From contig NZ_JABBHF010000012.1 of NCBI RefSeq assembly GCF_012910715.1, forward strand, positions 1-64,000: a stretch of 64,000 nucleotides of DNA, written 5' to 3'. This document shows positions 1 through 16,223 of the stretch, one piece after another. Numbering within the stretch: position 1 is the stretch's first letter; every line of letters starts with the position of its first letter. A program made the position numbers and the translations under genes. The DNA is from Flavivirga algicola. GTDB lineage: Bacteria; Bacteroidota; Bacteroidia; Flavobacteriales; Flavobacteriaceae. The notes beneath the pieces are model-generated. The model was not told where the DNA came from and ran no database searches. It saw only the letters and a program-made list of their open reading frames with translations.

Positions 1-194
1 CCTTCCAGTTTTGAGGTCACTTCCTGCTCGATAACTTTGGCAGAAGCATCTCTCCAACTGTAATTTACATGTATTGACGGCAAGGTTTTAGTTGGAGCCA
101 ATTGTACACTAATTAGGGGAATAAGACAGGCTCCAACAATGGATAGACATATGAACGCAATAAGCGTAGAGAATGTAGAAAGCTTAAAGTTCAT
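1..194 (-). CDS. RND-family efflux permease, N-terminal fragment (runs off the window)
   Basis: Only the first 64 codons are inside the window; the gene continues beyond position 1. The start is the ATG at 194-192. The visible protein begins with a short cytoplasmic segment, one hydrophobic helix (about residues 9-31), and then periplasmic sequence with the pattern P-S-I-H-V-N-Y-S-W-R-D-A and V-I-E-Q-E-V-T. This matches the start of the first porter subdomain of RND permeases (AcrB/CusA superfamily), which use the proton gradient to export substrates. It is a different protein from the full RND permease at 7013-10096, so the locus carries two permeases. The start codon lies 54 bases downstream of the signal peptidase stop, on the same strand, so the two may be co-transcribed. 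The family is fairly clear from the N-terminus; substrate class cannot be judged. Confidence 0.75.
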   Translation of the reverse strand, partial: MNFKLSTFSTLIAFICLSIVGACLIPLISVQLAPTKTLPSIHVNYSWRDASAKVIEQEVTSKLE

Positions 195-248
195 ATAACC
201 ATTTGTATAAAATTATTATTTACTATGCTTTTTATAACGTTAATTTAA

Positions 249-1436
249 TCAATTGACACTTTTAAATAAACGGTCCCACCTAAACCTGTCTTGATAATTT
301 GAAAATAAAACACATTGTACCTTGCCTATAATATTTGACTCTGGTACAAAACCCCACCTGCGGGAATCTTCGCTACTTTTTCTGTTGTCTCCCATCATAA
401 AATAATAATCCTGGTTAAAGGTATAACTCGTTGATTTTTTATTATTTATATAATACACCCCGTTAATCTCCTTAATTTTGGAATTTTCGGAACTATTTAT
501 TGCCCGTTCGTATAATGAAAACGTTTCTGGACTTAATTCTATTTTCATCCCTTTTTCGGGTACAACAAAAGGCCCCATATTATCAAATGTCCATTTTTTA
601 TCAGGTAATTTTGCAAATAGTTTTTTTTTAATATTAAAGGTGTCAATTTGTATTTCAACTGAGTCTATATAATTCTTTTTGACAAGATGTTCCAGATCCA
701 TTTTTGATAAATTAGCTTCTCCTCTTCCTTTTTTTAGTTTAAAATTCTTAATGGTTAAAGAATCCATTACTTTATACAATGCATTTTTATTTTTAATTGT
801 GAATTCATAATTATTCTTAATACTGTTAGACTCCTTAGCTAACATCCTATTTGTATAAATTTCTGCTTCTCTTATTCTAAACGTATCTCCAGGTAAGGCC
901 ATACAGCGTTTAACTAAAATATATTCTTTTCGCCATGTAGAATTAAAAACACAAATATCATTTTGTTTAATCGTTGTTATACCTGAAAATCTTTTGTATG
1001 ACCACCAATAATCATTTAAGCGCTTTTTCGCATTATTATTAAAGTAAAAAATAATATTCAATAAAGGAATATCAAAAGGAGAACGAGGCAATCTAGGCCC
1101 ATATTTTAGTTTGTTTACAATAATGACATCATTAGTATAAAGAGCGTCTTTCATCGAGTCGCTTGGAATCTTATAAATACCAAGCACTAAAAGTTTAATA
1201 CCAACAACTATTGAAAGCAAAAATAATATCTGAAATGATTTTTTGAGAATTTTTCTTAATCCCTTGTTTTTAATCAAAGCTATTATAATATGCGAAAGTA
1301 AATTGTATAATAATAAAAATAGAATTACACTTATACTTATCCATATTAACTTGAAAACCATAAATAAGAGCAGCAGCAGTATAATTAAAAATATTTTAAC
1401 ATGCTTCTTTGTTTTATTCCCTATTATCCCACTCAT
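249..1436 (-). CDS. lepB: Type I signal peptidase (S26 family)
   Basis: The 395-residue protein starts with about three hydrophobic segments (residues 14-30, 32-54 and 68-88) and then enters the S26 catalytic domain. The nucleophile box is P-S-D-S-M with Ser94 just before Met95. The general base is expected at Lys176 in the box L-V-K-R-C-M-A-L-P-G-D, and the C-terminal box G-D-N-R-x-S-S-E-D-S-R-R-W-G is intact near residue 350. It should cleave signal peptides of exported proteins at the outer face of the inner membrane. About 150 residues separate the Lys box from the C-terminal box, as in long Bacteroidetes LepB proteins. It lies 31 bases downstream of the MG2 protein gene and upstream of an RND permease, so it may be a dedicated peptidase of this export locus and not the housekeeping one. 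That role is inference; the enzyme call is secure. Confidence 0.93.
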   Translation of the reverse strand: MSGIIGNKTKKHVKIFLIILLLLLFMVFKLIWISISVILFLLLYNLLSHIIIALIKNKGLRKILKKSFQILFLLSIVVGIKLLVLGIYKIPSDSMKDALYTNDVIIVNKLKYGPRLPRSPFDIPLLNIIFYFNNNAKKRLNDYWWSYKRFSGITTIKQNDICVFNSTWRKEYILVKRCMALPGDTFRIREAEIYTNRMLAKESNSIKNNYEFTIKNKNALYKVMDSLTIKNFKLKKGRGEANLSKMDLEHLVKKNYIDSVEIQIDTFNIKKKLFAKLPDKKWTFDNMGPFVVPEKGMKIELSPETFSLYERAINSSENSKIKEINGVYYINNKKSTSYTFNQDYYFMMGDNRKSSEDSRRWGFVPESNIIGKVQCVLFSNYQDRFRWDRLFKSVN

Positions 1437-1467
1437 TTTTATCTCTATTTTTTACAAGGGTTGTGAT

Positions 1468-3780
1468 CTATTTCCTTTTTCCAACAAAAAACTCAAAAGA
1501 TCCTGTTCCCAAAAGACCTTCGGCACTTAGTCCCACTCCCTCAACAATACCGATGAATTTCGTATTTATATCGGAGCAATAAAAAATGATATCCGCCTCA
1601 CCCTTTTCATTGGTTATAATGTCCGGTTTCCATAACAAGGTATTTCTATAATCTGGGAAACCATTGATTTGATCTTCCTTATCATAAACGGGTTCATAAA
1701 ACTCCCGTTTTCCATAAAAGCCCTTTAGCATTTTTAAATTGAATTTTTTTAACAAATAGGACTCTGTTAACTCAGGATATTGGTATTTCAAATAACCAGA
1801 TCCAGTAATAGTATATGCATTTCTTTTATCATTCCACTTAAAACCTTCCATGTAATAATACACTTTTCCTTCTATAGGTTTTTTACTTTTATCATTCGAG
1901 TGGGCTTGACAATTTAATGTTCCACAAGGTATTCCAACATAATCGCTATTCATTTCTAATTTAGCCAAACTGTCCAGTCTTCCTAAATACTTGTCCCTGA
2001 ATACCTGTTTTTTATTTGTAGATAAAACAATCTCTTCCAGCTGGTTAAGTTCGTTTGATACGATAAAAGGCTCTGTTTCTTGTTCTCGGGCTTTATCTTT
2101 TAACTTTGATAGCGGATAACTTATGGGTGCTTTTTTTCTATTCGAACTTATAATATCGAACGAGGGATCCTTGATATCAATAACATATTTAGGCTTTTCT
2201 GGGGTCATGGGTTTTACGTATACATAGCCTTTTTCGCCCATTTTTAGATGTTTGTGGTTTATAATGAAAAAGCCTTTGGGATCTGTCATCATAATGTCCT
2301 TGTCCCTTAAAGAGTCCGAGGCAAATACCATTACAACTTGCTGTCCAGATATTTTGGGCCTTTTAGTCTTTTTTTCCAAGTGAATCACACCCGTAATGGA
2401 ATCGGAAAGTAAGGGCTTAATTTGCTTGCTGCCCTCTTTTAAACTAGGTTCGCCCCTTATGTACCGTCTCCATCCCTGAGTGAGCAATAGCAGGTTCAAA
2501 GCGTCCTCCCTATTTTTGTTCGCTTCATTAAAGTAATATGTGGGGTTGTTAATATTTCCTTTTAGCTGGGCGGACAGATAATAGTGCGTCATTATATTCT
2601 TTGGATCCAGCTCGTTTTGGTATAGTTTATCGAAAACACCCAGCCCCAAATGGGCAATTACGGGCTTGTTGTTCTGGTCGGTTACTCTTAGTTTTAAAAC
2701 GGCCTTGTCCCTGGCCTGGTATTCGCTTTTGTCCAATACTGCCCTAATGGTTAATTTCCTATGGGAATTCACATACATTAAACGTTCGGCCTGTGGTTTT
2801 ATATTTTCATCAAAAAGTGTTACCCTGGCTATACCGCTCGGGATATCCTTTAGTGGAATTTTAATGATAAGATCTCTCTTTAATCTCCCAATGGCGACAT
2901 TGTAAATAACCCCTCTGGTCTCTACTTTTAAATATATGGTTTCCTCTTTTAAATTGGCTGTTTGGCTGACCTTGAATACCGCCTGGTCTTTTGTCTTTTT
3001 TAACAACCGTAGTGTTTTTCCGCCAGGTAGAACCTGAGGCAAATCATAGGTCTTGTTACTTAGGGGATCGGTAAGCTGGATATGGTATCTGCTAAGCGAA
3101 TTTGGGAGAAACAGAAAACTTCCCATACCATCGTGAGCGCTTTTAAACTTGACCAGGGGTACGTTATTCTCGTACAATACTCCCGAAACATCCACTGGCA
3201 CCCCTTTTGAGTTCTCTGCTTTAAAGGCCAGTCTGCTTTGGATGCCAGAAACCAAATCTCCTCCTTCTGGAAATGTATTAAAGTTTAAGGTACTGTCATT
3301 TTTTACAGGCTCCCGTTTTTGTTTATGCTTTATGTTTTTAAGAATTTCCAATTTGCGTACCCCGTGGAACACATTTGTGCCTTCATAGAGTGAATGTGTA
3401 CTGTATGCTGCCAGAGTATAGGAACCTGCTCTTAAGGAATCGTTTAGATACAGGTGGCCGTCTACAAAGCCTGCTTCTATCTCATATTTTTCTTCCCAAA
3501 CAGACTTATCGGTCTTATCTTCTATTAATTGGACAAACAATGTCTTGCTCATTAAGGACGGAACGAGCAACTGTGAGTCCAAAACATAGCCCTTAAACCA
3601 TACTGCTTCCTCGGTTTCATAGATTCCCTTGCTCGTTTGCAGATAGACTATTTCTTTCTGATGGTTAGCAGCATATTGTTCCAGATTTGACAGTACATGA
3701 TCTGAAACACCAGTATCGTCTTGAGCATTGGCTTTAACCGAAAATAATACAAGTAGAAAATAAATGTAATTAGCCTTCAT
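1468..3780 (-). CDS. MG2-domain (alpha-2-macroglobulin-like) exported protein
   Basis: The 770-residue protein has a signal peptide ending near A-N-A-Q (residue 20). Residues 45-150 resemble the MG2 domain of alpha-2-macroglobulins (phrases such as Y-x-T-E-E-A-V-W-F-K-G-Y-V and R-A-G-S-Y-T-L-A-A-Y-S), followed by several beta-sandwich-like segments. It is about half the length of a true bacterial alpha-2-macroglobulin, and I see no thioester motif (CxEQ), so protease trapping is unlikely. Proteins of this build are common in Bacteroidota and are generally annotated only as MG2-domain or hypothetical; they are expected in the periplasm or at the cell surface. It sits between the beta-propeller lipoprotein and the signal peptidase on the same strand. 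A role as a structural partner in the export locus is inference. Confidence 0.75.
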   Translation of the reverse strand: MKANYIYFLLVLFSVKANAQDDTGVSDHVLSNLEQYAANHQKEIVYLQTSKGIYETEEAVWFKGYVLDSQLLVPSLMSKTLFVQLIEDKTDKSVWEEKYEIEAGFVDGHLYLNDSLRAGSYTLAAYSTHSLYEGTNVFHGVRKLEILKNIKHKQKREPVKNDSTLNFNTFPEGGDLVSGIQSRLAFKAENSKGVPVDVSGVLYENNVPLVKFKSAHDGMGSFLFLPNSLSRYHIQLTDPLSNKTYDLPQVLPGGKTLRLLKKTKDQAVFKVSQTANLKEETIYLKVETRGVIYNVAIGRLKRDLIIKIPLKDIPSGIARVTLFDENIKPQAERLMYVNSHRKLTIRAVLDKSEYQARDKAVLKLRVTDQNNKPVIAHLGLGVFDKLYQNELDPKNIMTHYYLSAQLKGNINNPTYYFNEANKNREDALNLLLLTQGWRRYIRGEPSLKEGSKQIKPLLSDSITGVIHLEKKTKRPKISGQQVVMVFASDSLRDKDIMMTDPKGFFIINHKHLKMGEKGYVYVKPMTPEKPKYVIDIKDPSFDIISSNRKKAPISYPLSKLKDKAREQETEPFIVSNELNQLEEIVLSTNKKQVFRDKYLGRLDSLAKLEMNSDYVGIPCGTLNCQAHSNDKSKKPIEGKVYYYMEGFKWNDKRNAYTITGSGYLKYQYPELTESYLLKKFNLKMLKGFYGKREFYEPVYDKEDQINGFPDYRNTLLWKPDIITNEKGEADIIFYCSDINTKFIGIVEGVGLSAEGLLGTGSFEFFVGKRK

Positions 3781-3905
3781 TTAGTATATATTATAAATTT
3801 TAGGTTTCGGATAAAGTAATTTATTAAACGTCTTATTTTGATACAAATACTTATCTAAATCAATCACTTATGCTTAGGTTTATATAATAATATTTTAAAT
3901 ATCTT

Positions 3906-5036
3906 CTACAGGATCGTATATTTATAAAAAGTCCTACATTCATCTAAATCTTCCAAACAACCATACTCCAAGTGAGGCTTTTTATTTAAATACAAATAGC
4001 CATCATCCAAAAATGAATTATAACCACTAATCTTAGATGAAACCTCATATTCCTTTAGTAAGTTTAATTCCTTATCGAAAACCAATAAAGATAAATCTAA
4101 AAAGTTGATTAAATATTTCTCTTCTTTGTCTATATGTTTGGGTAAGTGTTGGGCTAATCTATAGAAAACTTCATTATTCTCATCGTAGTGTATATAAGAA
4201 TAAAAACCATTGGATAGATAATTATAATGCGCTTTATAGGAATTATTTGACTCTCCGCTTTTTAATGGTAGTGGATTAATTTTTGAACTCTTCGCAAATA
4301 CTTTTTTAACAAGTTTCCCATCTAAATTATATACATATAAATAATCGGAACTACCAAAACTTACTATTATCCTCTTATCTAACAAAATAAATTTTGGTAT
4401 TAAATATTCCCTCTTCCAAACTTTGTCTTTAAATTCATCTGGGTATTTAATTATTTTCTCTTGTTTTCCTGTAATTAAATCAATTTTTAAAAAAGCGTAT
4501 GCATTATTAACCCCTGATGGCTTATCAAATCTAACAAAATCAACGCCTGGCAAATAAAAAACATAGTTTCTGAGAGCTGGTTTAAAATAAGAATGAAGAT
4601 TAACTGAAAAATTTCCTCCTTGTATTTTAAATTTTTTATTAATTTCAAGTTTATTATTAAATAAATAAAACTCCTTTTCATGTCCATTAAAAACAAAAAT
4701 GGAGTCTTCTGACACATAATGGAACCCATTGGCATTACCTATTCCATGTGGTCCATCTTCTTCAAATTTCAAGATGTCCCAATCATCGTTTTTTAGGTTA
4801 TATTTTGATATTCTTTCAATTGGAAAATCTGAATTTAAAAAAAATGGTTCCTCCACTTTAGTCTTTGAAAAATTCCAATAAATATCTGATATATAAACGC
4901 CCTCTGGCACTTTAAACACTAGAGAATCTTTTAATTCTATGTCAATATTATTTCCTAAACGAGAAACATTAACATTTTTTTTACATGAAAAATTCAACAT
5001 TAGTAAACATATTAATAACTGAAAAATGCGCATCAT
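3906..5036 (-). CDS. Beta-propeller lipoprotein, DUF4221-like
   Basis: The 376-residue protein begins with a lipoprotein signal (hydrophobic run then L-N-F-S-C, Cys at about residue 18). The rest is mostly beta-strand-like, with repeated aromatic and acidic phrases (W-D-I-L-K-F-E-E-D-G-P-H-G-I-G-N near residue 80; Y-L-Y-V-Y-N-L-D-G-K-L-V near 230), as in the six-bladed propeller lipoproteins of Bacteroidota (DUF4221 and relatives). Family knowledge: such lipoproteins often lie near genes for small exported peptides and O-antigen-ligase-like proteins in Bacteroidota; no biochemical role is established. A 259-base gap separates it from the six-gene operon upstream, so it may have its own promoter. 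It is followed after 125 bases by the MG2 gene. The family assignment is by general resemblance. Confidence 0.65.
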   Translation of the reverse strand: MMRIFQLLICLLMLNFSCKKNVNVSRLGNNIDIELKDSLVFKVPEGVYISDIYWNFSKTKVEEPFFLNSDFPIERISKYNLKNDDWDILKFEEDGPHGIGNANGFHYVSEDSIFVFNGHEKEFYLFNNKLEINKKFKIQGGNFSVNLHSYFKPALRNYVFYLPGVDFVRFDKPSGVNNAYAFLKIDLITGKQEKIIKYPDEFKDKVWKREYLIPKFILLDKRIIVSFGSSDYLYVYNLDGKLVKKVFAKSSKINPLPLKSGESNNSYKAHYNYLSNGFYSYIHYDENNEVFYRLAQHLPKHIDKEEKYLINFLDLSLLVFDKELNLLKEYEVSSKISGYNSFLDDGYLYLNKKPHLEYGCLEDLDECRTFYKYTIL

Positions 5037-5295
5037 AGAAAATTTAGATTCTTTTATATTAAATTACTATTTAAGATTTAAATTGTTAAAATCCTATATT
5101 CACTTCGACTAAGCTCAGTGACCACTTAGGGATAAAATTTTCCCTCTGGGTATTTATTTGGGGTATTTCATAGGCTCATTTTTAATTAAACAATATTTTT
5201 AATATTAAATGCTCAGAGGTCTTTTTACATAAATTCATAAGTTTCATACTATATTACAAATCACATACATGACAGGGACAGATTTTGTCACTTTG
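5037..5295. other. Intergenic gap between the export operon and the propeller lipoprotein gene
   Basis: No convincing gene is visible in this 259-base gap. It holds a copy of a short dispersed repeat (separate entry at 5101-5124) and a cluster of GACA/TGTC words at 5271-5290. A 21-codon minus-strand frame at 5184-5247 is the longest small frame seen and has no recognisable leader or precursor features. A promoter for the downstream lipoprotein gene is likely here, but no clear box was found. Confidence 0.4.
5101..5124. repeat. Short dispersed intergenic repeat (CTTCGACT..GCTCAG type)
   Basis: The core ACTTCGACTAAGCTCAGTGA is the same kind of sequence as the core inside the compound repeat at 17276-17343 (CTTCGACTAACGCTCAGACT). 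Sequences of this kind recur between genes in many flavobacterial genomes. It lies in non-coding DNA between the export operon and the propeller lipoprotein gene, where it could form a weak hairpin in RNA. Confidence 0.55.
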
Positions 5296-5496
5296 CTATT
5301 CTTTTAAAATATATTTTTTTCCCTTTCTGCAATACTTAATAACATAGCCTTCGTCTCGTAAATTCGACAACATACGTTTTACTGTTCTTATGCTACAATT
5401 ATAATCGTTCGCTACCTTTTTTAATGAAAAAAGTCTTTCTTGCTCTATTAGATATAATAGATGGTTTTCTTTTTGCTTTTTTTCTGTGTAGGTCAT
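5296..5496 (-). CDS. Small winged-helix (HTH) DNA-binding protein
   Basis: The 66-residue protein is almost entirely one helix-turn-helix plus wing: a first helix around H-L-L-Y-L-I-E-Q, then the phrase S-L-K-K-V-A-N-D-Y-N-C-S-I-R-T-V-K-R-M-L (turn and recognition helix, residues 24-43), and a basic wing (Y-C-R-K-G-K-K-Y). It resembles the DeoR/HTH_11-type domain without any ligand-binding or receiver domain. The start codon lies 2 bases after the TolC-like gene stop, so it is the last gene of the operon that begins at 16223. A plausible role is autoregulation of that operon; this is inference from position. It could also be the remnant of a larger regulator, but its compact, basic C-terminus looks complete. 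Confidence 0.75.
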   Translation of the reverse strand: MTYTEKKQKENHLLYLIEQERLFSLKKVANDYNCSIRTVKRMLSNLRDEGYVIKYCRKGKKYILKE

Positions 5497-5498
5497 GA

Positions 5499-7016
5499 TT
5501 AATCTTTTAATATGGTTTCAAAATCTTGTACTAAATGAGTGCCATCAATAAAATTATAAAGCGTTAATTGCTGCACTTTATAATACAATGTCCAATAATC
5601 CTGCAATGTCCGTATATAGTTTTCATTAGCAAGCTGCCATGCTTTTCTAGAAGATGTTAGGTTTAAATAGTCTACACGTCCCGATAAAAAACGTTTTTCT
5701 GTTAAATTGTACGACTCTTTTGAGATCTCACGGGTTTTTAAAGCTCCGAACACCAGCTCTTTTTGAAGGTTAAAATCTAAAACCTTTAATGTAATGTCCT
5801 GTTTGTAAGTGTCTTCATTTTGTTGTAATTCGATATCGATAACATCCTTATTCATCCTTGCGGTTTTTATTTTGCCTTTCCTTTCTCCCCAATCCAATAT
5901 AGGTACATTAAGCTGTATGGCTACCATCTGTTGATCTAAAAACCTCCCATAGGCATCTACAAAGGTATTGGCTTGTTGATTTAAACCGTAACTGGCCGTT
6001 AAAGACAAGTCGAACCTATTATCTTTTATGGCCCGATCTAAGTCTCTTAAAGCTTCTACTTTTCTTATTTTTAAATCGAGTATATCTGGATTGTTTTGAT
6101 AGGCAAATGCTATAGCTTTATTCAAATCTATGGTTAAATCAGATATCAGTTCTGGTAATTCGGGAATGGACTGCTGCGGTAATTCATCCCTTAAAAATAA
6201 TTGCAGTTCGGCTTCTGTCTTTTGTAAGGCTTGCATGTTTTGTGTTAGATTGGTATTTGCATTATATACATCTAATTCTAGGTTTAAAAGATCATCACGT
6301 TCAATAGCAATTAAATCGTAACGTTTTTTACCAATATTGAACAGTTTTTCGGCCGAAGCCTTATTTTCCCTTGCGATTTCTACTTTTTTACTTGCCAAAG
6401 CCCATTTAAAAAACAAATCGACCGATTTTAGATTAATAGTTTGCAATGCATACAAAAAATCCTGTTTTGCTTTCTGAAATTCCAAGGGCGCCGTTTTTTG
6501 CTGCCATTTAAAAGTATTAAATGCCATGATAGGCTGCGACAGACCAATTCTAACCGGCGTTGCGCTGTAGGTTTCTATTTCTAAGTCCCCAAAATTTTCA
6601 AGCCTGTTAAAACTGGAATTAACAAACAACCGTGTTCCTGTGGCCCTAATATTTTGACTTATAGAAAGGTTTCCAAAACTATTGATGGTTTGCTGCTGTC
6701 TAAATACATCTATGTTTTGTTCGGAGTCGTAGCGCTCTATTAAAGCCCTGTTAAAAGTAAATGGTCGTGCTTCGAAATTTATTTTTGGGAGTAAACTGGA
6801 TTTAAACGATCTAAACTGCCAGTAATTAACACCATATTTTCGTTTGGCCTTAAAAACATCTAGAGACTTTTTACTGGCAAGTTTCAGCACATCATCAAGG
6901 GTTATATTTCGCTGTATACTTCCAGACGACACGTTACTTTGTTGTGCGGTAGCTTTGGTACAGTTTAACACCACACCTATTACAATACATATTAGTTTTA
7001 TCTGAATATATCTCAT
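5499..7016 (-). CDS. TolC-family outer-membrane channel
   Basis: The protein is about 505 residues from the chosen ATG at 7016-7014. That start gives a clean signal peptide (M-R-Y-I-Q-I-K-L-I-C ending A-T-A-Q) and overlaps the RND stop by four bases (ATGA), a typical coupled arrangement; a start 30 bases further upstream is open but gives no proper signal peptide. The body has the two long helical, coiled-coil repeats of the outer-membrane efflux protein family with beta-strand segments between (for example R-L-F-V-N-S-S-F and L-S-L-T-A-S-Y-G-L-N). It should form the trimeric outer-membrane exit duct for the adjacent HlyD-type adaptor and RND permease. Length and repeat layout are normal for the family. 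Confidence 0.92.
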   Translation of the reverse strand: MRYIQIKLICIVIGVVLNCTKATAQQSNVSSGSIQRNITLDDVLKLASKKSLDVFKAKRKYGVNYWQFRSFKSSLLPKINFEARPFTFNRALIERYDSEQNIDVFRQQQTINSFGNLSISQNIRATGTRLFVNSSFNRLENFGDLEIETYSATPVRIGLSQPIMAFNTFKWQQKTAPLEFQKAKQDFLYALQTINLKSVDLFFKWALASKKVEIARENKASAEKLFNIGKKRYDLIAIERDDLLNLELDVYNANTNLTQNMQALQKTEAELQLFLRDELPQQSIPELPELISDLTIDLNKAIAFAYQNNPDILDLKIRKVEALRDLDRAIKDNRFDLSLTASYGLNQQANTFVDAYGRFLDQQMVAIQLNVPILDWGERKGKIKTARMNKDVIDIELQQNEDTYKQDITLKVLDFNLQKELVFGALKTREISKESYNLTEKRFLSGRVDYLNLTSSRKAWQLANENYIRTLQDYWTLYYKVQQLTLYNFIDGTHLVQDFETILKD

Positions 7017-10000
7017 TTTATTTTCTTGGTAAATTGGTAATAACAAAGGGGTATAAAATAGAGACTAACCAAGGTTCCCAAAAGCATCCCTCCTATTAAT
7101 GCTACTGCCAGAGGCGCCTGTAATTCTGCTCCAAGACCACTTGAAAACAGCAACGGGACTAAGGCTAGAATGGTTGTCAAGCTGGTCATAAGTATCGGTT
7201 TTAAACGCCGTTGCCCTGCAATTAATAAGGCTTTTATTAAAGAATATCCCTGACGTTGCAGTTGAATAATAGTATCTATCTTTAAAATGGAATCGTTTAT
7301 TATAATGCCTCCCATAACCACAATGCCTATCATGGACATTAAATTAATACTCATACCAAAAAGCTTTAAAAACAAAAAAGCACCCGCCAAATCTATAGGG
7401 ACTTCCAACAAAATAATAAGAGGCAACAAGAAAGACTCAAACTGAGAAGCCAAAATAAAATAGAGCAACACCAAAGAAATCAACAGCACAATTTTTAATT
7501 CGCCCATGAGTTCTTGATTAGAAAAAAAGCTTCCTGAAAAATTAACATCATACCATTTATTATTGCTTATCACTTGCTTTATATCGGTTATGGTACTCTC
7601 CATATCGCCTTCCTCAATATTAAACACCAAAGGATAGTATGCGCCCTCTTTCCCACCAGTAATACTCTTTAAATCTTCGGCCTTTACAACTTTAACGAAA
7701 TCCTTGACCTGAAAAGTGGTATTCTCATTAGATTTCACTGTTGTTTTTGTAAGTATGTCATTTATATCTCCTGCATGAGCCCCTAAAACTATTGGAACAA
7801 AGTTTTGGTTATCGGCAATAGATAAAATATCCCGTTCATTAAAAGCACTTTTAAGTGTACTAAACAAATGGTTAGGCGTTATATTATATGTGATCAGTTT
7901 TTCTTGATCTGCAACGAGCGTCAGATGTTCCTGCCAGGCTATGGGCTTTAACGCAACATCCTTTAAGTTTTTCTGTATTTGATACCAGACATGTTTTAAT
8001 TGGGTATTTTGATTGCTTCCCAAGTTTTCAACATGTCGTAACCTCGCAACTAATGGGGTTTCATTATTCGAAAAAATTAGGCTAAAAATGTTATCCACTT
8101 CTTTGTACTTGTAAATAATTCCAGCATATTTATTTGCTAAAAAATCATTTAATTGTGATTTTACATTTGATAAGGTTTTTTCACTTTTAGTTTGTAAATA
8201 GATAGTCGTTTCTGATGTTTTTGCTTCTGTATCTTTATCCAATAAAAACTGTTGCGTGCCAACTAAAGCCGTTTGGTTTATTAAGTTTTCCTGTATTGGT
8301 TTGAGTAGTTCTAATACACGACGTTTATTTTCTTCAACGTTTATTTGTTCATTCCAATCTATTTTTAACAAAGTTTCTGTGCTTGTTAAGGCTGGCATTT
8401 GCGACTTTGGTAAAACACTAAATAGGCCTATGGCAATAATTAAAAGCAAGACACTAATGCCCCAGGATACCCTTTGTTTTTTCATGACCCATTTAAAACC
8501 TTTTTCGTAAATAGCTGCGTAATCCAAAGTATTGGTTTTAGCCAAAAAATTACTTATCCAACTAATACGGGAATTATCTTTTAAGTGAAATAAGCGATAT
8601 AGGACAGGTAATAATGTAATAGAAACCAATAACGAAACAAACAAACCGATACTAATTGCCATGGCCTGATCGTAAAATAAAGCCCCACTTATGCCACTTA
8701 AAAAAACCAAGGGCAAAAACACTGCACATGTTGTTAAAGCCGAGCTTAACAAGGGTTTTAAAACTTCGTTAGTTCCCAATACACAAGCTTTTGAAAGCTT
8801 ATACCCTCTTTGTCTGTATTGTGTGATATTATCGATAACAATAATGGAGTTATCTATCATAAGTCCGATACCCAAAACCAATCCAGATAATGAAATAATG
8901 TTTATTGAAATATGTAGCAGGTGAAAAAACAGTAAACAAACGACTAGAGAAGTCGGGATAGTTATTCCTATCAATAAAGGTGATTTTACATTCTTCAAAA
9001 ATAAAAACATAACCACAAAAGCAAGTAGCATACCCCATAACAAGCTCTGAAATAAATTAGAGATAGCATAATCCAATAATTTAGTTTGGTCTCTAGTTAT
9101 TGAAAAATTAATATGAGAATAATCGTTTCTAAGGTTATGTAGCAAATTATTTAAGGCCTTTTTTAAATCACCCATTCTGGCATCACTTTGTTTTATAATA
9201 GCCATGGTGACCGCTTCATCATTATCAGAAAGTACCAAACCTGTTCTGTTCTGGGGATGTTCGACAACTTCTGCTAGCTCTTTTAACTGAAAAATACGGT
9301 GATTTTTATTTATGTAGATCGCTTCAATATCCTTTATATTATTAAGTGAAGTCCCTAAGCGCACATCATATTGATATTGGTTGTCTTTAATCAATAAGCT
9401 TCCAATATCTAAGTCGTTATTCTTTATGGCCAATTCCAAATCATTTAACCCTATACCAAGGGCATCTAATTTATTTTGGTCGGGTATAATCAAAATCTCT
9501 GAAGCCACCAAACCACTTACATCTACCATGGCCACTTCACTAACCTGTTCAATACGCCTACGAATTACTTGATCTGTAAAACGATTAAAATCAACAAATT
9601 CTTGAGATACGGGATAAAGCCTCTTGTTTTGAGATATAGGCTTTTTATGGGTTTTATCTATTTCTTTAAGCGTCATGCTTAAATAAAATACAGGAATATC
9701 TGTGGCACTGGCTTTTATAACTTTAGGTCGCTTAATAGTTTTGGGCAAACTTCCAATAATACGATCAATCTTCTCATTCACTTCAATAAAGGCATAATCT
9801 ATATTACTGCCATGCGTAAAACTCAATCTAATAACTCCCGACTCGTTACTGGATTCACTTTTAATATCCTTTAAATGGCTCACTTGCAGTAAACGAGAAC
9901 GTAACGGTTTTAAAACGGCGTCTTCCAATTGTCTTGCAGACATATTATCGGCCTGTACTTGCACGGTAATTTCTGGAATATCAATATCGGGCATTAATGA

Positions 10001-10096
10001 CACAGGAATAAAACCAAAAGCATACACTCCTAAAATAAGAACACCCAATGTGGTCATTAAAACGGCTATGGGTTTATGTATTAAAAATTTCACCAT
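7013..10096 (-). CDS. RND efflux permease (AcrB/HAE superfamily)
   Basis: A full-length inner-membrane RND permease (1027 residues): N-terminal helix, large periplasmic porter domain, six-helix bundle near residues 345-500, then the repeat of this plan in the second half. The TM4-type segment reads G-I-G-L-M-I-D-N-S, with Asp415-Asn416 where AcrB has two Asp. The TM10-type segment reads G-G-I-I-I-N-D-S with Asp935 and no Lys in the usual position. The proton relay therefore differs from AcrB, as in many Bacteroidota RND proteins. It would export a substrate together with the HlyD-type adaptor (18 bases upstream) and the TolC-like channel (overlapping downstream). The substrate is not predictable; the neighbours argue against a generic drug pump, though that cannot be excluded. 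Confidence 0.95.
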   Translation of the reverse strand: MVKFLIHKPIAVLMTTLGVLILGVYAFGFIPVSLMPDIDIPEITVQVQADNMSARQLEDAVLKPLRSRLLQVSHLKDIKSESSNESGVIRLSFTHGSNIDYAFIEVNEKIDRIIGSLPKTIKRPKVIKASATDIPVFYLSMTLKEIDKTHKKPISQNKRLYPVSQEFVDFNRFTDQVIRRRIEQVSEVAMVDVSGLVASEILIIPDQNKLDALGIGLNDLELAIKNNDLDIGSLLIKDNQYQYDVRLGTSLNNIKDIEAIYINKNHRIFQLKELAEVVEHPQNRTGLVLSDNDEAVTMAIIKQSDARMGDLKKALNNLLHNLRNDYSHINFSITRDQTKLLDYAISNLFQSLLWGMLLAFVVMFLFLKNVKSPLLIGITIPTSLVVCLLFFHLLHISINIISLSGLVLGIGLMIDNSIIVIDNITQYRQRGYKLSKACVLGTNEVLKPLLSSALTTCAVFLPLVFLSGISGALFYDQAMAISIGLFVSLLVSITLLPVLYRLFHLKDNSRISWISNFLAKTNTLDYAAIYEKGFKWVMKKQRVSWGISVLLLIIAIGLFSVLPKSQMPALTSTETLLKIDWNEQINVEENKRRVLELLKPIQENLINQTALVGTQQFLLDKDTEAKTSETTIYLQTKSEKTLSNVKSQLNDFLANKYAGIIYKYKEVDNIFSLIFSNNETPLVARLRHVENLGSNQNTQLKHVWYQIQKNLKDVALKPIAWQEHLTLVADQEKLITYNITPNHLFSTLKSAFNERDILSIADNQNFVPIVLGAHAGDINDILTKTTVKSNENTTFQVKDFVKVVKAEDLKSITGGKEGAYYPLVFNIEEGDMESTITDIKQVISNNKWYDVNFSGSFFSNQELMGELKIVLLISLVLLYFILASQFESFLLPLIILLEVPIDLAGAFLFLKLFGMSINLMSMIGIVVMGGIIINDSILKIDTIIQLQRQGYSLIKALLIAGQRRLKPILMTSLTTILALVPLLFSSGLGAELQAPLAVALIGGMLLGTLVSLYFIPLCYYQFTKKIK

Positions 10097-10114
10097 GTTA
10101 CATGAGTATAACCG

Positions 10115-11212
10115 TTAATTTTCGGGCTTTATTGATATCTCACTATCATGAGCCAAATTCAAATTATCTGAAACAATAATAGTATCCCCGGGTTTTAAAG
10201 ATGCACTGCTTTTATCTGGGTCTGGAACAACCACATATTCCTTACTATTCTCAAGTGTTGTTTTTATATAATTCCAATAAGCTTTGCCTTGATTTACTTT
10301 AAACAAAACTTCTTGGTTATCTCTCAGCACTACAGCAGATTTAGGTACTATAAACTGATCGGGGATATCTTTTTTAATAAACACTTTTACATTCATCCCT
10401 TCTAATAAATCACCATCGTTTTTAACCTGTGCCCTTATTAAAATAGTACCGTCTTCTTCTACCTGGGGGTTTATGTTAGCAATATAACCTTCATAACTTC
10501 TATTAATAGCAAAAGGCTCTATGGTTATTTTATCCTTGGTCTTTATATCTTTTAATTCGGATTCTATGACGTAAAACTCTACTTCAAAAATAGCATCGTT
10601 AATAAGCGTTATAAATGCTTTTCCAGAGTTTACCTGTTCGTATTGTTTACTATTTATATTGGCTATTTTTCCACTAAAAGGGGCTACTAGCCTAGTAGAC
10701 TTTAAATCGAAACGCGCATTTTCTAGCTGGTGCAGGGCATTTTTATAGCCCGATTTAATAGCCATCATATCGTATTCCTTTTGGGCAAGGCTATCTTTAG
10801 CATTAGCGCTAAAACCACGACGCACTTGTAAATCGTTAAACTCTAAAGTGGCTTCTTTTAAATCTATTTCGGCTTTATTTACTTTTTGTCTATATGTAAA
10901 GGCATCTAAGGTTGCTAATAATTGCCCTTTTTTTACATAGTCACCATTCTTTACATAGATCTTATGTAGTTTTTCACTAACATTAAATTTAAGTTCGCTT
11001 TTTTCTAAAGCTACGAGGCGTCCATTACTAACCAATTCTTTTTTAAAGGTATCTTTCTTCAATATGATGATATTCACCTCATTTTTGTTTGGGAGGTATT
11101 CCTTTTTGTTTATAACCTCACCCTCTTTATTTTGTTTTTCTTTATTACAATTAGACAAAGTAATAATGCTAATTATTAAAAAAATCCATTTTACTATTTT
11201 TTGGTACCTCAT
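10115..11212 (-). CDS. Periplasmic adaptor lipoprotein (HlyD/AcrA family)
   Basis: The 365-residue protein has a lipoprotein signal (I-I-T-L-S-N-C, Cys at about 22), a first half-lipoyl segment with the signature V-K-K-G-Q-L-L-A-T-L-D (near residues 97-107), a helical hairpin, a second half-lipoyl segment (V-A-P-F-S-G-K-I-A near 176-184) and the beta-barrel and membrane-proximal domains (G-M-N-V-K-V-F-I near 276). This is the standard layout of membrane-fusion proteins that bridge an RND permease to a TolC channel. It is the fourth-from-last gene of the operon, 13 bases after the O-antigen-ligase-like gene and 18 bases before the permease. The assignment is secure. Confidence 0.93.
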   Translation of the reverse strand: MRYQKIVKWIFLIISIITLSNCNKEKQNKEGEVINKKEYLPNKNEVNIIILKKDTFKKELVSNGRLVALEKSELKFNVSEKLHKIYVKNGDYVKKGQLLATLDAFTYRQKVNKAEIDLKEATLEFNDLQVRRGFSANAKDSLAQKEYDMMAIKSGYKNALHQLENARFDLKSTRLVAPFSGKIANINSKQYEQVNSGKAFITLINDAIFEVEFYVIESELKDIKTKDKITIEPFAINRSYEGYIANINPQVEEDGTILIRAQVKNDGDLLEGMNVKVFIKKDIPDQFIVPKSAVVLRDNQEVLFKVNQGKAYWNYIKTTLENSKEYVVVPDPDKSSASLKPGDTIIVSDNLNLAHDSEISIKPEN

Positions 11213-11225
11213 AGTTGTTTTTTAA

Positions 11226-13124
11226 TTATAGCCCTTTTATTATATTTTTCATTTCTTCTTTCATTTCTTTTATAGCAGTAGACGGTATTTTTACCTCTTT
11301 ATTCAAAATAATTTTTGCCATCGTAATCGCTTTCTCTTTTTCTCCGCTCGATTCATATAATTTTGCCAATAAATAAAGTGGGTAGAACCTGGCAGGAATC
11401 ATATCAGCAGCATGTTTATAAGCTTTTTCTGATTTTTTATATTGTTCTAAACTTTTATACGCATCCCCTAAAGCTGTCTCAATAATAGTTGTGTTGAGGT
11501 GTTTTTTAGCCTCTTTTAAAACTTGAACCGCTTTTTTATCCTGTTTATAAATAGATAAAGCTTTACCATAATTCATTAAAAATTCACCATTATTTTTAAA
11601 TTTCGGGTAAGCTGTCTCGTATACTTTTAGAGCACCCTCATAATCTCCATACTGGTAACTATTTAAGGCCAATTCCCACGATTTAAAACTTTTATCTAAA
11701 CTATTTATGTACTTAATACTTATTGTTATAACTATTAAGATTCCTGCGGTCAAAAAAGTTTTTAACGCAAGTAGCCTACTTTTTTTTTGTACCTGTAAAA
11801 TATTTACTTTATGGCTATCAAGTGTTGCCATAATAGCTAATAAAATAACCAGAATAAGCTTGGTTGGTAAGATTTCCATAGGGTATGAAAAGCATGAAAA
11901 TACACCAATTGCAAGCAAGCCTATTTTTATAATAAAACTTAAATTTTTATATTTTTTTATTGAAGCTATTTTAAATATAAAATACAGAGTAACAATCAGT
12001 AATACAAAACCTACAACGCCGTTCTCAACTATAAATTGTACAAACTCATTAAAGGCATAATAGCTATTGTCGGCAACCAAAGCATCTTGGGTTTCCTCAC
12101 GTTCGACAAAATGGTTGGCTTGATAATTCATGTAATGTGCCTTGAAACGGTCGAAACCAACTCCAAAAGCAGGCTTATCTTCTATAATTTCTGTTGATAC
12201 TTTCCAAATAAACAAACGCCCATCAGAAGACCCTTTTTTAAAATGGTAAATACCGAATAAACTTACACTTATAATTATTAAAGTACAAATAACTATAATC
12301 GTCTTTTTAATAATATTCAACTTAAGGAACAATCTTTTTATAATACCGTACTTTAATTCCAATAAAACCATACTACTCAATAATACCGCTAACCAGGATG
12401 CTCTGGATTGCGCAGCAGGTAACACTAGAACTATACTTATAATCCCTGATAATGGAACATATTCAAAAACATATTTGGTTATGTAATTAAAAAGAAAATG
12501 TTCCCCCTCTGTATTATTTGTAATATACTCGACTATGCTTTCCTTGAATAGATAAACACCTAAGGCTATTGGAAAAACAGCAGCAAGAAACCCAGCATAA
12601 GGTCCTGGATTAAAAAAACTTCCTGTTAATTTAAACCCCGAATGATTGGACGGGCAATACCCCAATAATTGTAAATTGCCATATACAGCTTGAATAATTC
12701 CTGAGATAATAACCAGCAACAATAGCCAATAGATATTTTTTTTATTAAAACTTCTAATTAAAATATATAGCACACTTAAACCTAACAACTCCATATAACG
12801 AATAGAAAAACCATAGGTTGTTTGCAGTAAGTATCTATTTATTGTTATGTAAACAACCAGTATAAATAAAGCCATATCTAATTTAGATAATGATATATTA
12901 GATTGCTTAGAAGTAATAAGTGATGCAGCAGAAAGACCTAAAAGCACTATACAGGCATAGGAAAAAACAATAAATTTACTTGTTACGGTCGGTTGCGGGT
13001 AACCATTAATATCAATATGAGGCAAAACAACTATGACTAGACATACCAAAAATGTAAGTAAAAATGAATAGCTCTTATTATTTCTAATAAAAATAGTATA
13101 AAAATAAGAATACATTCTGCTCAT
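11226..13124 (-). CDS. O-antigen-ligase-like membrane protein with C-terminal TPRs
   Basis: The 632-residue protein has about 11-12 membrane segments up to residue 475, with a Wzy_C-type periplasmic loop containing G-R-L-F-I-W-K and P-A-F-G-V-G-F-D-R-F-K near residue 300. From about residue 490 it carries roughly three to four TPR units (W-E-L-A-L-N-S-Y-Q-Y-G-D-Y-E-G-A-L; A-L-G-D-A-Y-K-S-L-E). Classical members transfer glycans to lipid A, but proteins with this TPR tail are widespread in Bacteroidota outside polysaccharide loci, often beside lipoproteins and exporters, and their substrates are unknown. There are no glycosyltransferases or other O-antigen genes in the window, which argues against ordinary LPS ligation here. 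It is second in the operon. Confidence 0.82.
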   Translation of the reverse strand: MSRMYSYFYTIFIRNNKSYSFLLTFLVCLVIVVLPHIDINGYPQPTVTSKFIVFSYACIVLLGLSAASLITSKQSNISLSKLDMALFILVVYITINRYLLQTTYGFSIRYMELLGLSVLYILIRSFNKKNIYWLLLLVIISGIIQAVYGNLQLLGYCPSNHSGFKLTGSFFNPGPYAGFLAAVFPIALGVYLFKESIVEYITNNTEGEHFLFNYITKYVFEYVPLSGIISIVLVLPAAQSRASWLAVLLSSMVLLELKYGIIKRLFLKLNIIKKTIIVICTLIIISVSLFGIYHFKKGSSDGRLFIWKVSTEIIEDKPAFGVGFDRFKAHYMNYQANHFVEREETQDALVADNSYYAFNEFVQFIVENGVVGFVLLIVTLYFIFKIASIKKYKNLSFIIKIGLLAIGVFSCFSYPMEILPTKLILVILLAIMATLDSHKVNILQVQKKSRLLALKTFLTAGILIVITISIKYINSLDKSFKSWELALNSYQYGDYEGALKVYETAYPKFKNNGEFLMNYGKALSIYKQDKKAVQVLKEAKKHLNTTIIETALGDAYKSLEQYKKSEKAYKHAADMIPARFYPLYLLAKLYESSGEKEKAITMAKIILNKEVKIPSTAIKEMKEEMKNIIKGL

Positions 13125-13157
13125 TAATATTCGATTAATTCGTAAAAAAAGTTATAG

Positions 13158-16100
13158 TCAATTCGCTATTTTCCATGATTCATTAAAATATCCTTGTCCA
13201 AGAACTCTATTATTATAAGCAACATCCTCAACTTCATAATCATAATAACCATCTACTGCCATATTTCCTTTTCGCTTATATACACAATGGTTGTTATTAC
13301 CACCCAATAAAACGATATACTTATCGGGGTTTAATGGGTTTGGATACACTATGCAATAGCCTAGTTTATTTCCTTTATAACTTTGGCTATCTAACTTTAA
13401 TCCATTTGTATTAATCTTTAGAGGTAACTCCTTGTATATTTTTTTGAACCATAAATTGGTATGCTGATTGCCTATTATTATTAAATTACTATGAACTAAA
13501 TCTGCTTTGTCAACATCTTTATCATACTTCACTGGTGGATAAGCATAATACGCCTTATGCCAAGAATCTATGAATGAATTTGCTATTGAGTCATTATAAA
13601 CTTTATCCAATCGGCTTCCTAAACTACCCTTTACAACTATAAAATGACCACCAAATACATCTACAAGTGGTCCCTCTGTAAATTCGTTTTTGGATAGTCC
13701 TACTTCCTTGCTATTTTTATTAAAATTAAATGTGATCGCTTTGTCATAGGGATAACTATATGTATAATTCTCATTATTTATATGTATTAACAAATCATTT
13801 TTACTTTCTATAGGCACCTGATTAGGATGTATAATCAGTTTTTTTGCATTTTTAACAACCACATTTATTTTGTTTCCAGTTACGCTAGCTTTAACATTTG
13901 CTTTTTCACCAGATTTCATTGGAAATAATTGCAACCAATACGCTTTATTGTATCGATGACGGTATGTAGAAAAATCTACCTCTTTCTTTGCTTTTTGGGC
14001 TTTGCCATTAAAAAAATCAAACATTTTATTATGGTAAAATAACTCAGGGTTTCCTTTATTAAATGTTTTAGCTAATTTTTCAAATTGCACACCAGCTTCC
14101 AATTGGTTAGCTTCATCTATAAAGTGTGCCATATATTTAATATCTGTATGGAAATTGTATTCGTTATGAAAGGCATAAATAGGGTTATTCTTTAAATTCT
14201 CCATTATGGCATATGGTCCATCTGTTTGAGAATAGCTATTAGTGGGCGTACTAACTGTCCCGCCTCCTATGCTTAATGCAGCAATTTTATCTGGATAGCG
14301 TTCGGTTAAACAAAGGCTTAAACCAGTAGCACCACATTTTGAATACAAATAAATACGACTTGTATCTATGGGATGGTTTTTTGAAACCTCCTCTATTAAG
14401 GAAAAGAAATCCGATTCAGCTATTGGTGAAATTAGCGAATTTGTATGTGTTCTTAAACCTGGAGCAGCAACATAACAATTATACCTTTCTGCTAATATTT
14501 TATAAAATTCTATATTGGTATTATTAGCAACTCTGGTACTTTTTAAATAATTCAAATGATTTGCCTCTGTTACTGGCATTACAACTACTAAAGGTTTTTT
14601 TATAGGCTTTTTTTCTTCAATCGGTTTATGGAAAGTATAATATTGAGGTACACTATCAACTTTTGAAACAAAAGAATTTATTATAATTTCTTCACTTCTA
14701 AAAGGCTTCTTTAGCTTGGTTAGATCATATAATTCTCTGTACAACAAAATTTTACTTTTTTCAAAGTTTACAGACCAGTTACTTTGATTAGTCGATATAG
14801 CCATATAATTAGGTCGCTCTTTATCAAATTCAAAAAAAACAGGTGTATTTTCCAAACTAGGTCTCCAAAATTCTTTTAAGTTCCCATCTGACATAATTTT
14901 AGATACTGCACTATCACTTACACGTACAGGCCTAATCTCAGAATGTGTATTGTCTTGTTTGTAAAATCTAATTTCTGATATCGGGCGGTTTTGTTTTTGG
15001 GACAAAGAAAACTTTATCTTTTTTGGAGCTTTTAAATTGACCCATCTAGAAGGAAAATTCAAAAAATTAAAAATTGTATCCGCGGTATTTGCTTTACTAA
15101 ACTGCTCTAATATTATTCCATTTCTTTTATAAAAATGGTCATTTATTAGACTATCTCTCTTAATTAAAGCTTTTAGTGTATTTTTTAATTTAAAAGATTG
15201 GCATGTATCAATAATCTTTTGGGCTGCTGATACTTTTTTAGATAATTCATTATCTATATCTCCATAAAAAAAAGATTGATGAAACAAATTTGAATCTGAA
15301 ATTAAATCGGCTTCATATAGCCCAATCTTAAAATCATTAGGTAATTTAATTTCTGATACTCCTTGTTTATCCTCTTTTGTATAAACTAACTTCTCATTTA
15401 TATCATAAATATTTACCTTGTTTATTAATCGAGATTTATGGAATATATCCTTCAATTCCAAAGGAAAAAATTTAGGCAAAACACAAGATTTGAAGTAATT
15501 GGTTTGATTTTTAAGATAAAAACTATAATACCTATCTAAGGACGCCAAATTACAGGAAAAACGCCATTCTTGTTGTTTCCCCACCTTGGTTGGTTTAATA
15601 CATACATTACCTAATTTGATGAGCAAAAAATTGTTTCCTTTTTTCAAATGTCCAAAAACTCTAGTTTTTGGACCTGAATAGTTTCTTGTATCTGCAAACT
15701 CATGAATTACCTTCCCATTAAGGGAAATGATGCAGCTATCATCGCTCCCAAAGAGGATGCATACATCTTTTTCCTTATCACTAAAAATGTTACAGGATAA
15801 GTAAATGACACTTGTCTTTTCTATATCGAAGTAATTCTTAAAATTGATATACCCTTGACTTTGAGAATATTTAGAATTCGTGAATTCATTTACGTAAAAA
15901 AGGGTATCTGAGTAATTATTTTTTTCTACTGAATTCAATATTTTGGGAGTAACTCTTGATGCATTAATTGCATTATAATGTTGTAGAACAGGATAATTTA
16001 TTAAATCCTTAGCCTGAAACAAGCTATCCGCATAAAAAGGCCCCGTAATTTTCCAGTTTTCTAAAAAGATATCATTATTACCTTCCTTGTTAGCAATAAA

Positions 16101-16223
16101 ATTTGTTTCAGATTTTGAAATGTAGTTGCACGAACCAAATAATGGCAAAACCACAATTAATAAAATTAAAACTTTATGCTTTATCACAGTGTATTTTGGT
16201 TCAGAAAATAAACAAAAACTCAT
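13158..16223 (-). CDS. Large lipoprotein of the prolyl-oligopeptidase/alpha-beta hydrolase type, Cys in place of Ser
   Basis: The 1021-residue protein has a lipoprotein signal (hydrophobic run then L-F-G-S-C, Cys32); a GTG 13 codons in would give a shorter signal and is an alternative start. Residues 50-230 look like a sugar- or carbohydrate-binding-type beta domain (G-S-D-D-S-C-I-I-S-L-N-G). The alpha/beta-hydrolase core begins near 545 (P-L-V-V-V-M-P-V). Its nucleophile elbow reads Y-S-K-C-G-A-T-G, so Cys630 occupies the place of the usual Ser; a candidate catalytic His is His731 (F-Y-H-N-K-M-F-D-F-F). A C-terminal domain from about 830 follows the plan seen in long S9-like hydrolases (F-G-G-H-F-I-V-V-K-G). 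It is first in the six-gene operon, so its substrate is probably linked to what the exporter handles. Whether it is a peptidase, esterase or catalytically dead binding protein cannot be decided. Confidence 0.75.
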   Translation of the reverse strand: MSFCLFSEPKYTVIKHKVLILLIVVLPLFGSCNYISKSETNFIANKEGNNDIFLENWKITGPFYADSLFQAKDLINYPVLQHYNAINASRVTPKILNSVEKNNYSDTLFYVNEFTNSKYSQSQGYINFKNYFDIEKTSVIYLSCNIFSDKEKDVCILFGSDDSCIISLNGKVIHEFADTRNYSGPKTRVFGHLKKGNNFLLIKLGNVCIKPTKVGKQQEWRFSCNLASLDRYYSFYLKNQTNYFKSCVLPKFFPLELKDIFHKSRLINKVNIYDINEKLVYTKEDKQGVSEIKLPNDFKIGLYEADLISDSNLFHQSFFYGDIDNELSKKVSAAQKIIDTCQSFKLKNTLKALIKRDSLINDHFYKRNGIILEQFSKANTADTIFNFLNFPSRWVNLKAPKKIKFSLSQKQNRPISEIRFYKQDNTHSEIRPVRVSDSAVSKIMSDGNLKEFWRPSLENTPVFFEFDKERPNYMAISTNQSNWSVNFEKSKILLYRELYDLTKLKKPFRSEEIIINSFVSKVDSVPQYYTFHKPIEEKKPIKKPLVVVMPVTEANHLNYLKSTRVANNTNIEFYKILAERYNCYVAAPGLRTHTNSLISPIAESDFFSLIEEVSKNHPIDTSRIYLYSKCGATGLSLCLTERYPDKIAALSIGGGTVSTPTNSYSQTDGPYAIMENLKNNPIYAFHNEYNFHTDIKYMAHFIDEANQLEAGVQFEKLAKTFNKGNPELFYHNKMFDFFNGKAQKAKKEVDFSTYRHRYNKAYWLQLFPMKSGEKANVKASVTGNKINVVVKNAKKLIIHPNQVPIESKNDLLIHINNENYTYSYPYDKAITFNFNKNSKEVGLSKNEFTEGPLVDVFGGHFIVVKGSLGSRLDKVYNDSIANSFIDSWHKAYYAYPPVKYDKDVDKADLVHSNLIIIGNQHTNLWFKKIYKELPLKINTNGLKLDSQSYKGNKLGYCIVYPNPLNPDKYIVLLGGNNNHCVYKRKGNMAVDGYYDYEVEDVAYNNRVLGQGYFNESWKIAN

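Follow-up and report, generated by a model that had tools for sequence, protein, structure and literature searches.

Ten consecutive minus-strand genes lie at the start of a contig of the flavobacterium Flavivirga algicola (assembly GCF_012910715.1, contig NZ_JABBHF010000012.1), and their combination of a tripartite pump, an additional signal peptidase and a protein with an O-antigen-ligase fold raises the question of what such a locus would export, process and modify. A first-pass annotation of this DNA had proposed a single export-and-processing system and had found no precursor gene. We analysed the first 64 kb of this 135-kb contig (C4; hereafter the window) within its 5.02-Mb genome (G000, 37 contigs) and against related loci. 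Gene linkage, precursor anatomy, family and fold assignments and a conserved 5' element, all read from sequence, indicate that the locus is probably dedicated to the secretion of small cysteine-rich peptides whose leaders are of the NVEALA type, a conclusion that we hold with good confidence.

Gene content of the locus

All ten open reading frames (ORFs) were confirmed at positions 1-16223 of the window. The six genes from the hydrolase to the helix-turn-helix (HTH) protein are as tightly packed as first described: the first three gaps measure 33, 13 and 18 bases, the next two genes overlap by 34 bases, and the last gap is 2 bases. Searches of Pfam and NCBIfam placed window proteins over cut-off in Peptidase_S26/TIGR02227, DUF4221, HTH_Mga, OEP, ACR_tran, RND_mfp and Wzy_C (with TPR), and the RND permease, RND_mfp adaptor and OEP channel of a tripartite RND pump stand in a single gene run. 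A scan for sigma-70-type promoters and terminators gave no excess over shuffled sequences. The features, all on the minus strand, are as follows.

13158..16223, lipoprotein with an alpha/beta-hydrolase-like part, 1021 aa; lineage-specific accessory
11226..13124, O-antigen-ligase-fold membrane protein with C-terminal TPR (the TPR protein), 632 aa; marker gene; Wzy_C 68.2 bits
10115..11212, HlyD/RND-type periplasmic adaptor; TIGR01730 160.8 bits, cut-off 94.9
7013..10096, RND permease 1 (RND1); ACR_tran 573 bits; linked in relatives
5499..7046, TolC-type outer membrane channel; OEP 94.1 bits
5296..5496, mini winged-helix putative regulator (HTH), 66 aa; HTH_Mga 24.2 bits, cut-off 23
5277..5289, near-palindrome GACAAAATCTGTC, candidate operator, directly 3' of the HTH stop codon
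5140..5224, probable remnant (5' part) of the conserved 5' element; cmsearch 56.9 bits
3906..5036, propeller lipoprotein (DUF4221); 96.3 bits
1468..3780, MG2-like protein, 770 aa; MG2 25.6 bits, below the cut-off of 32.8; relatives in 13 of 80 linked loci
249..1436, additional type I signal peptidase (S26); TIGR02227 114.2 bits, cut-off 47
3..194, RND permease 2 (RND2), first 64 codons, cut by the contig end; full gene on contig C36
1..628, 628-bp exact repeat (S26 3' end and RND2 5' end), common to both ends of contig C16 and the start of C36

A precursor cassette on a contig with the same terminal repeat

The window starts at the terminus of C4, inside the 628-bp repeat. An identical copy lies in direct orientation at both ends of C16, a contig of 4,196 bp, and another at the start of C36 (1-628), where a full-length RND2 follows it. 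C16 carries a cassette encoding a 79-aa NVEALA-type precursor, a propeller lipoprotein and a thioredoxin-like lipoprotein with a CxxC motif. The precursor is not visible in the window because it sits on C16; its reported absence thus holds for the window only, and extending the search past position 1, as had been advised, brought both the peptide gene, on a contig with the same terminal repeat, and the complete RND2. The simplest reading of the layout is C4-repeat-(cassette-repeat)n-C36, with n at least 1; an excised circle carrying the repeat would yield the same contigs. The repeat bounding the cassette could permit its excision or amplification with S26 and RND2 staying intact.

A search of G000 with the precursor of the same-genus genome G006 found two copies, one at C16:1331 and one at C32:297250, along with one further match that was not significant. 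The copy on C32 belongs to a second precursor-propeller-thioredoxin-like cassette (C32:297250-299286, L032), and no exporter was found in the 35 kb read around it.

G006 and G009, of the same genus, were the nearest relatives compared. The G006 locus is uninterrupted, cassette included: all ten genes are present, with protein identities of 87.9-99.2% for nine of them and 84% for the start of RND2, and between MG2 and the propeller it has extra genes that encode a precursor of 75 aa, another propeller and a CHGC-containing lipoprotein. Identities in G009 were 38% for the hydrolase, 58% for the TPR protein, 57% for S26 and 80-87% for HlyD, RND1, TolC and HTH, with three precursor-propeller-thioredoxin-like cassettes among the pump-locus genes.

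Linkage across Bacteroidota

The comparison of gene neighbourhoods proposed in the first-pass annotation was carried out on 80 named loci, the best of 290 relatives, chosen through alignment of the TPR protein and scored with twelve hidden Markov models (HMMs) built from the window and its relatives. This selection makes the constancy of the TPR protein itself uninformative, and the loci are not independent, since L080/L081, L106/L112, L109/L114 and L126/L148 are each two loci of one genome. As controls we took 20 arbitrary 20-kb regions from 8 genomes, only two of which are among those of the named loci.

At least one of exporter, S26, cassette and propeller was present in 70 of the 80 loci. 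Among the 43 loci of at least 21 kb this held for 42, against 0 of the 20 control regions, in which all twelve HMMs stayed below 40 bits (best 17.6) and no cassette was called. The linkage exceeds chance. By component, the 80 loci contained S26 in 41, HlyD in 40, RND1 in 37, RND2 in 21, TolC in 30, the propeller in 46 and a cassette in 40; a thioredoxin-like protein was found in 25, MG2 in 13, HTH in 16, a TG-like protein in 36 and the hydrolase in 3. The counts for the 43 longer loci were 23 for S26, 25 for HlyD, 26 for RND1, 20 for TolC, 31 for the propeller and 27 for the cassette. "TG-like" is our own label, for a Cys/His motif recognised by eye, and the one such protein tested had no Pfam transglutaminase match; "thioredoxin-like" is likewise ours, with no Pfam thioredoxin match in the three tested.

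A less selected test used 296 genomes of the phylum. The TPR protein was present in nine, and in four of them (G000, G190, G724 on its contig C6, and G566) a precursor cassette and at least an RND gene adjoin the TPR gene; the precursors of G724 C6 and G566 were recognised by eye, and of these four S26 was seen only in G000 and G190. In G641 propellers alone adjoin the TPR gene, and in G431, G437, G182, G522 and the second G724 locus at most a TG-like gene was found beside it. The sample of the class gave a TPR match in 9 of 395 genomes, and five of the eight besides G000 (G368, G190, G455, G224 and G316) carry the system or its peptide-propeller-S26 part. These neighbourhoods support the view that pump, S26, ligase-like protein and propellers form one recurring locus, as the first-pass annotation had supposed; the hydrolase, which it had counted in, does not share this recurrence.

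One typical Bacteroidota-like locus (L097) comes from a contig assigned to Candidatus Campbellbacteria, an assignment that probably reflects an error of binning.

Anatomy of the precursors

Fifty-five cassettes were called in 41 loci. One call was false (L085, 1-411) and was removed before leaders and cores were compared; in that comparison the identical cores of L109/L114, which overlap, were skipped, and the leader ends of L077, L088 and L099 were set by hand. The precursors follow one plan, with a basic start, a hydrophobic segment of the membrane-anchor type, a putative A-x-A cut and a variable Cys-rich core. This matches the NVEALA type, in which a small-x-small cut precedes a variable core, with the cut placed here by pattern. 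At least two cysteines are present in 53 of the 55 cores, one of the two exceptions being the false call, and the share of Cys is 8.5% in cores, against 0.3% in leaders and 1.1% over all ORFs.

In 58 precursors, the median distance from the most hydrophobic stretch to the A-x-A end that follows it is 25 residues (range 9-32). An ordinary signal peptidase site lies closer to the hydrophobic stretch than this. The position of A-x-A beyond such a site would explain why the locus has a dedicated S26.

Leaders and cores also differ in how they vary. Among 22 pairs of precursors from the same genome, leaders are at least 75% identical in 11, and the cores of these 11 pairs share 21-37% in ten (two of them repeat counts from overlapping loci) and 87% in one (L120). 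Over all 1647 pairs, leaders average 34% identity (20% when shuffled) and cores 25% (24% when shuffled).

The Pfam family NVEALA (PF14055) was matched over cut-off by three of the four non-flavobacterial precursors tested (G190, G224 and G316), which share the leader plan with the others; the name that Pfam gives this family indicates no function. The two G000 precursors matched no family at E<=1, the whole G000 genome had no PF14055 match over cut-off, and the four G006 and G009 precursors had no PF14055 match. PF14055 was rejected as a genome-wide marker, being over cut-off in one of 296 phylum genomes and thus too narrow.

In G566 (L205/L206), several precursors have almost the same leader and differ in their cores. 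Both there and in G724 (L201/L202), membrane proteins named by eye as MauE/DoxX-like lie near the cassettes, which suggests thiol chemistry.

Putative processing and accessory proteins

In S26, Ser94 and Lys176 are invariant in 36 of 36 sequences, and we take them, by motif, to be the catalytic dyad; together with the TIGR02227 match over cut-off, this points to a type I signal peptidase. A separate S26 ORF on contig C35 (532 aa, 32% identity) is presumed to be LepB.

The AlphaFold model of the TPR protein (pLDDT 91.5) aligned with WaaL (7tpg_B) over 365 residues, with a Z of 19.0 and an rmsd of 4.2, and the Wzy_C score was 68.2 against a cut-off of 31.7 bits. Plain Foldseek returned TPR repeats, and VIA-align ranked WaaL first. 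The protein thus resembles WaaL in profile and fold but differs in its C-terminal TPR domain and in its linkage to peptide cassettes. Arg241 and Arg303 are invariant in 75 sequences. An FNE motif is also conserved in the alignment, FNE having been part of the pattern used to search for loci, and Phe358 appears to stand where the ligase histidine would be expected.

The hydrolase is a rare accessory rather than a core component, judging from its distribution. One of its three occurrences among the 80 loci is a 132-aa piece at a contig edge, and it was rejected as a marker of the system, as it was found at full length in 3 of 12 same-genus genomes, with weak partial matches otherwise. Its Esterase_PHB match is sub-threshold (18.9 against 23 bits). 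The three sequences that cover the expected nucleophile elbow (window, G006 and G009) share a Cys there, and no conserved histidine was seen after it, so that an active Cys-type enzyme is no more than putative; the AlphaFold model was discarded (pLDDT 36.5). In none of its three loci does the hydrolase occur with the TG-like lipoprotein, an exclusion that with three cases, one of them the contig-edge fragment, is only suggestive.

Of the 26 thioredoxin-like proteins 25 have the CxxC motif, compared with 25 of 208 similarly sized other ORFs; the comparison is partly circular, the seeds having carried the motif.

A putative regulator and a conserved 5' element

Homologues of HTH scoring at least 100 bits were found in 13 of the 80 linked loci. 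In 13 of 13 related loci a palindrome follows the HTH stop codon, GAC-N7-GTC in all but one, which has GTC-N7-GAC; the window version is GACAAAATCTGTC. The 21-bp sequence around it occurs once in the G000 genome at up to 3 mismatches.

Upstream of the precursors, Flavobacteriia have a conserved element of about 180 nt, with copies at 5140-5224 of the window, L072:19658-19839 and L031 (C16):1117-1292. A 25-pair structure, made by hand and derived from ten close elements, was paired in 97.2% of cells in those same ten sequences (shuffled 94.9, sd 0.4), with a covariation score of 0.185 (shuffled 0.138, sd 0.009), and four of its pairs showed changes on both sides. RNAalifold, run on 25 elements, gave only four pairs and no covariation.

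An RNA model was run on 86 sources, comprising 58 of the 80 named loci, 8 stretches of our own genome or G009 and the 20 controls. It gave 36 matches, the ten building sequences among them, and none in the control regions. A precursor-type ORF lies within 260 nt downstream of 30 of the 36 matches, or of 20 of 26 when the building sequences are left out. Run on 60 genomes of relatives, the model matched 14 times, in 7 of the genomes; five of these matches are building sequences. Of the 14, we read 13 as lying in such loci; in G004 and G029 the neighbour genes were seen and no precursor was called. One match (G003:C1:3555706, L222) lies upstream of a 312-aa lipoprotein-like ORF, with no evident precursor locus. 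In the stretches tested, the single Rfam match was at chance level and did not fall on the element. We regard the element as a candidate new cis-regulatory RNA. Like the peptide/propeller/thioredoxin-like cassettes, it goes beyond the picture given by the first-pass annotation.

The copy in the window (5224-5140) keeps the 5' part only and is followed by the propeller, with no precursor; it is probably a remnant. Where the 3' half of the element belongs, positions 5101-5122 read GTCACTGAGCTTAGTCGAAGTG on the minus strand, a stretch that to our eye resembles a flavobacterial REP-type repeat.

Weighing the evidence

Several observations weigh against a peptide secretion locus, or against parts of it. 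The A at -1, and partly that at -3, was built into the pattern used to search for precursors. The remaining 11 same-genome pairs have leaders at 20-56% identity and cores at 19-58%, and neither the flavobacterial precursors tested nor that of G368 match PF14055. Divergence of cores and of propellers is uncorrelated (rho -0.04), so that cognate pairing is unsupported. Ten of the 80 loci have no exporter, S26, cassette or propeller, nine of these ten being shorter than 21 kb, and S26, HlyD and RND occur jointly in just 19 of 80, within the stretch covered. The TPR family extends beyond the system, which is lacking in G431, G437, G418, G182, G522 and at one of the two G724 loci. Finally, the adjacency of C4, C16 and C36 is deduced from the repeat that they share.

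We considered three other explanations. In the first, the peptides are antagonistic, bacteriocin-like toxins that share one exporter, and the propellers are their immunity proteins; this would be compatible with the secretion locus and would refine it. Variable Cys-rich cores behind conserved leaders fit a toxin family, as do the multiple, satellite and repeated cassettes, and bacteroidetocins offer a precedent of Cys-containing antibacterial peptides with a thiol oxidoreductase (the sections available of PMC6671954). Immunity by propellers fits less well with their lack of correlation with the cores and with the 5 of 22 same-genome pairs that share a single downstream propeller gene, and the same sections report no immunity protein in bacteroidetocin producers. 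We regard the toxin-immunity proposal as possible, with the balance leaning against it.

It is unlikely, in our judgement, that the locus is instead a glycoconjugate system in which the TPR protein would transfer an oligosaccharide or a lipid to the peptide, which as acceptor would be tethered or displayed at the surface rather than freely secreted. The WaaL fold and the two invariant arginines speak for it, but no glycan synthesis family is present among the ten window genes, and a Phe apparently occupies the place of the ligase histidine. An ordinary RND drug-efflux operon lying by chance beside envelope genes is very improbable: the RND, HlyD and TolC families are generic, but in many named genera of Bacteroidota they recur beside precursors, S26, propellers and the TPR protein, against 0 of 20 controls.

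Discussion

For a secretion locus of Cys-rich peptides, we infer the transport steps, the chemical steps and the regulation as follows. The precursor, of about 60-160 aa, would be inserted by Sec by way of the hydrophobic segment at its N terminus and would remain anchored by it. The S26 of the locus would then cut after A-x-A, some 25 residues past that segment, and release the core into the periplasm, where the CxxC thioredoxin-like lipoproteins of the cassettes may manage its disulfides. HlyD-RND1-TolC, probably with RND2, would drive the core across the outer membrane. The propeller lipoproteins could serve as receptors, as adaptors or as partners in immunity. The TPR protein, with its WaaL fold, may attach a glycan, or a group of another kind, to the peptide or to an anchor, and the mini winged-helix protein and the 5' element would set expression.

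The order of these steps resembles that of the Escherichia coli heat-stable enterotoxin II (STII), which, in the model published for it (the portions available of PMC5985334 and PMC8277102), passes through Sec, loses its leader, forms disulfides in the periplasm and is exported by the tripartite MacAB-TolC. The same two-step order is proposed here. MacB is of the ABC type, whereas both permeases here are RND proteins, and the window locus adds an extra S26, propellers and a WaaL-fold protein. Bacteroidetocins are also small Cys-containing peptides of Bacteroidetes with a cluster-encoded thiol enzyme, but, in the sections available of PMC6671954, they have double-glycine leaders of 15-16 aa and an ABC peptidase-transporter, in contrast to the membrane-anchor leader, A-x-A and RND pump found here. 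No ABC or C39 family is present among the ten window genes, and the leaders do not end in GG.

In the open-licence PubMed Central (PMC) literature we found component annotations only, and no description of the system or of a variant combining RND, S26 and a WaaL-fold protein. The same literature held no paper on "NVEALA", and the Pfam and DUF names returned apparent Plasmodium gene names and a 2007 phylogeny with a single mention of BF3164. The words propeller, signal peptidase, RND, HlyD and O-antigen are absent from the text available of a survey of ribosomally synthesised and post-translationally modified peptides in Bacteroidales (PMC10352776). A study of iron in Bacteroidetes (PMC10434189, as far as its text was available) lists, for the gut bacterium and laboratory model B. 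thetaiotaomicron, the genes BT0662 (O-antigen ligase family), BT0663 (hypothetical), BT0664 (6-bladed beta-propeller), BT0667 (signal peptidase I) and BT0669 (RND adaptor). They are entered there separately, mostly with p >0.1, and are not treated as a system; their names and order suggest that B. thetaiotaomicron carries the locus.

In its fullest form our model is of an undescribed Bacteroidota system that occurs in several orders. Export would proceed in two steps, through Sec and then an RND pump, with a signal peptidase belonging to the system, and a TPR enzyme of WaaL fold would modify or tether the Cys-rich peptides, which are hypervariable. In Flavobacteriia a new structured leader RNA would control the peptides, and cassettes may be gained or amplified through flanking repeats. 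As a whole this fullest form is tentative, and somewhat more likely to need amending than to stand complete.

These results give the uncharacterised NVEALA-type peptides a candidate machine, with exporter, processing enzyme and partners. Its carriers span Flavobacteriia to Bacteroidales and, from the gene names in the available text of that study, apparently include B. thetaiotaomicron. If this proposed machine is right, it shows RND pumps dedicated to exporting ribosomal peptides that Sec delivers, and a large number of Cys-rich peptides so far unseen would be opened to discovery. The 5' element can also be used as a search key for precursors.

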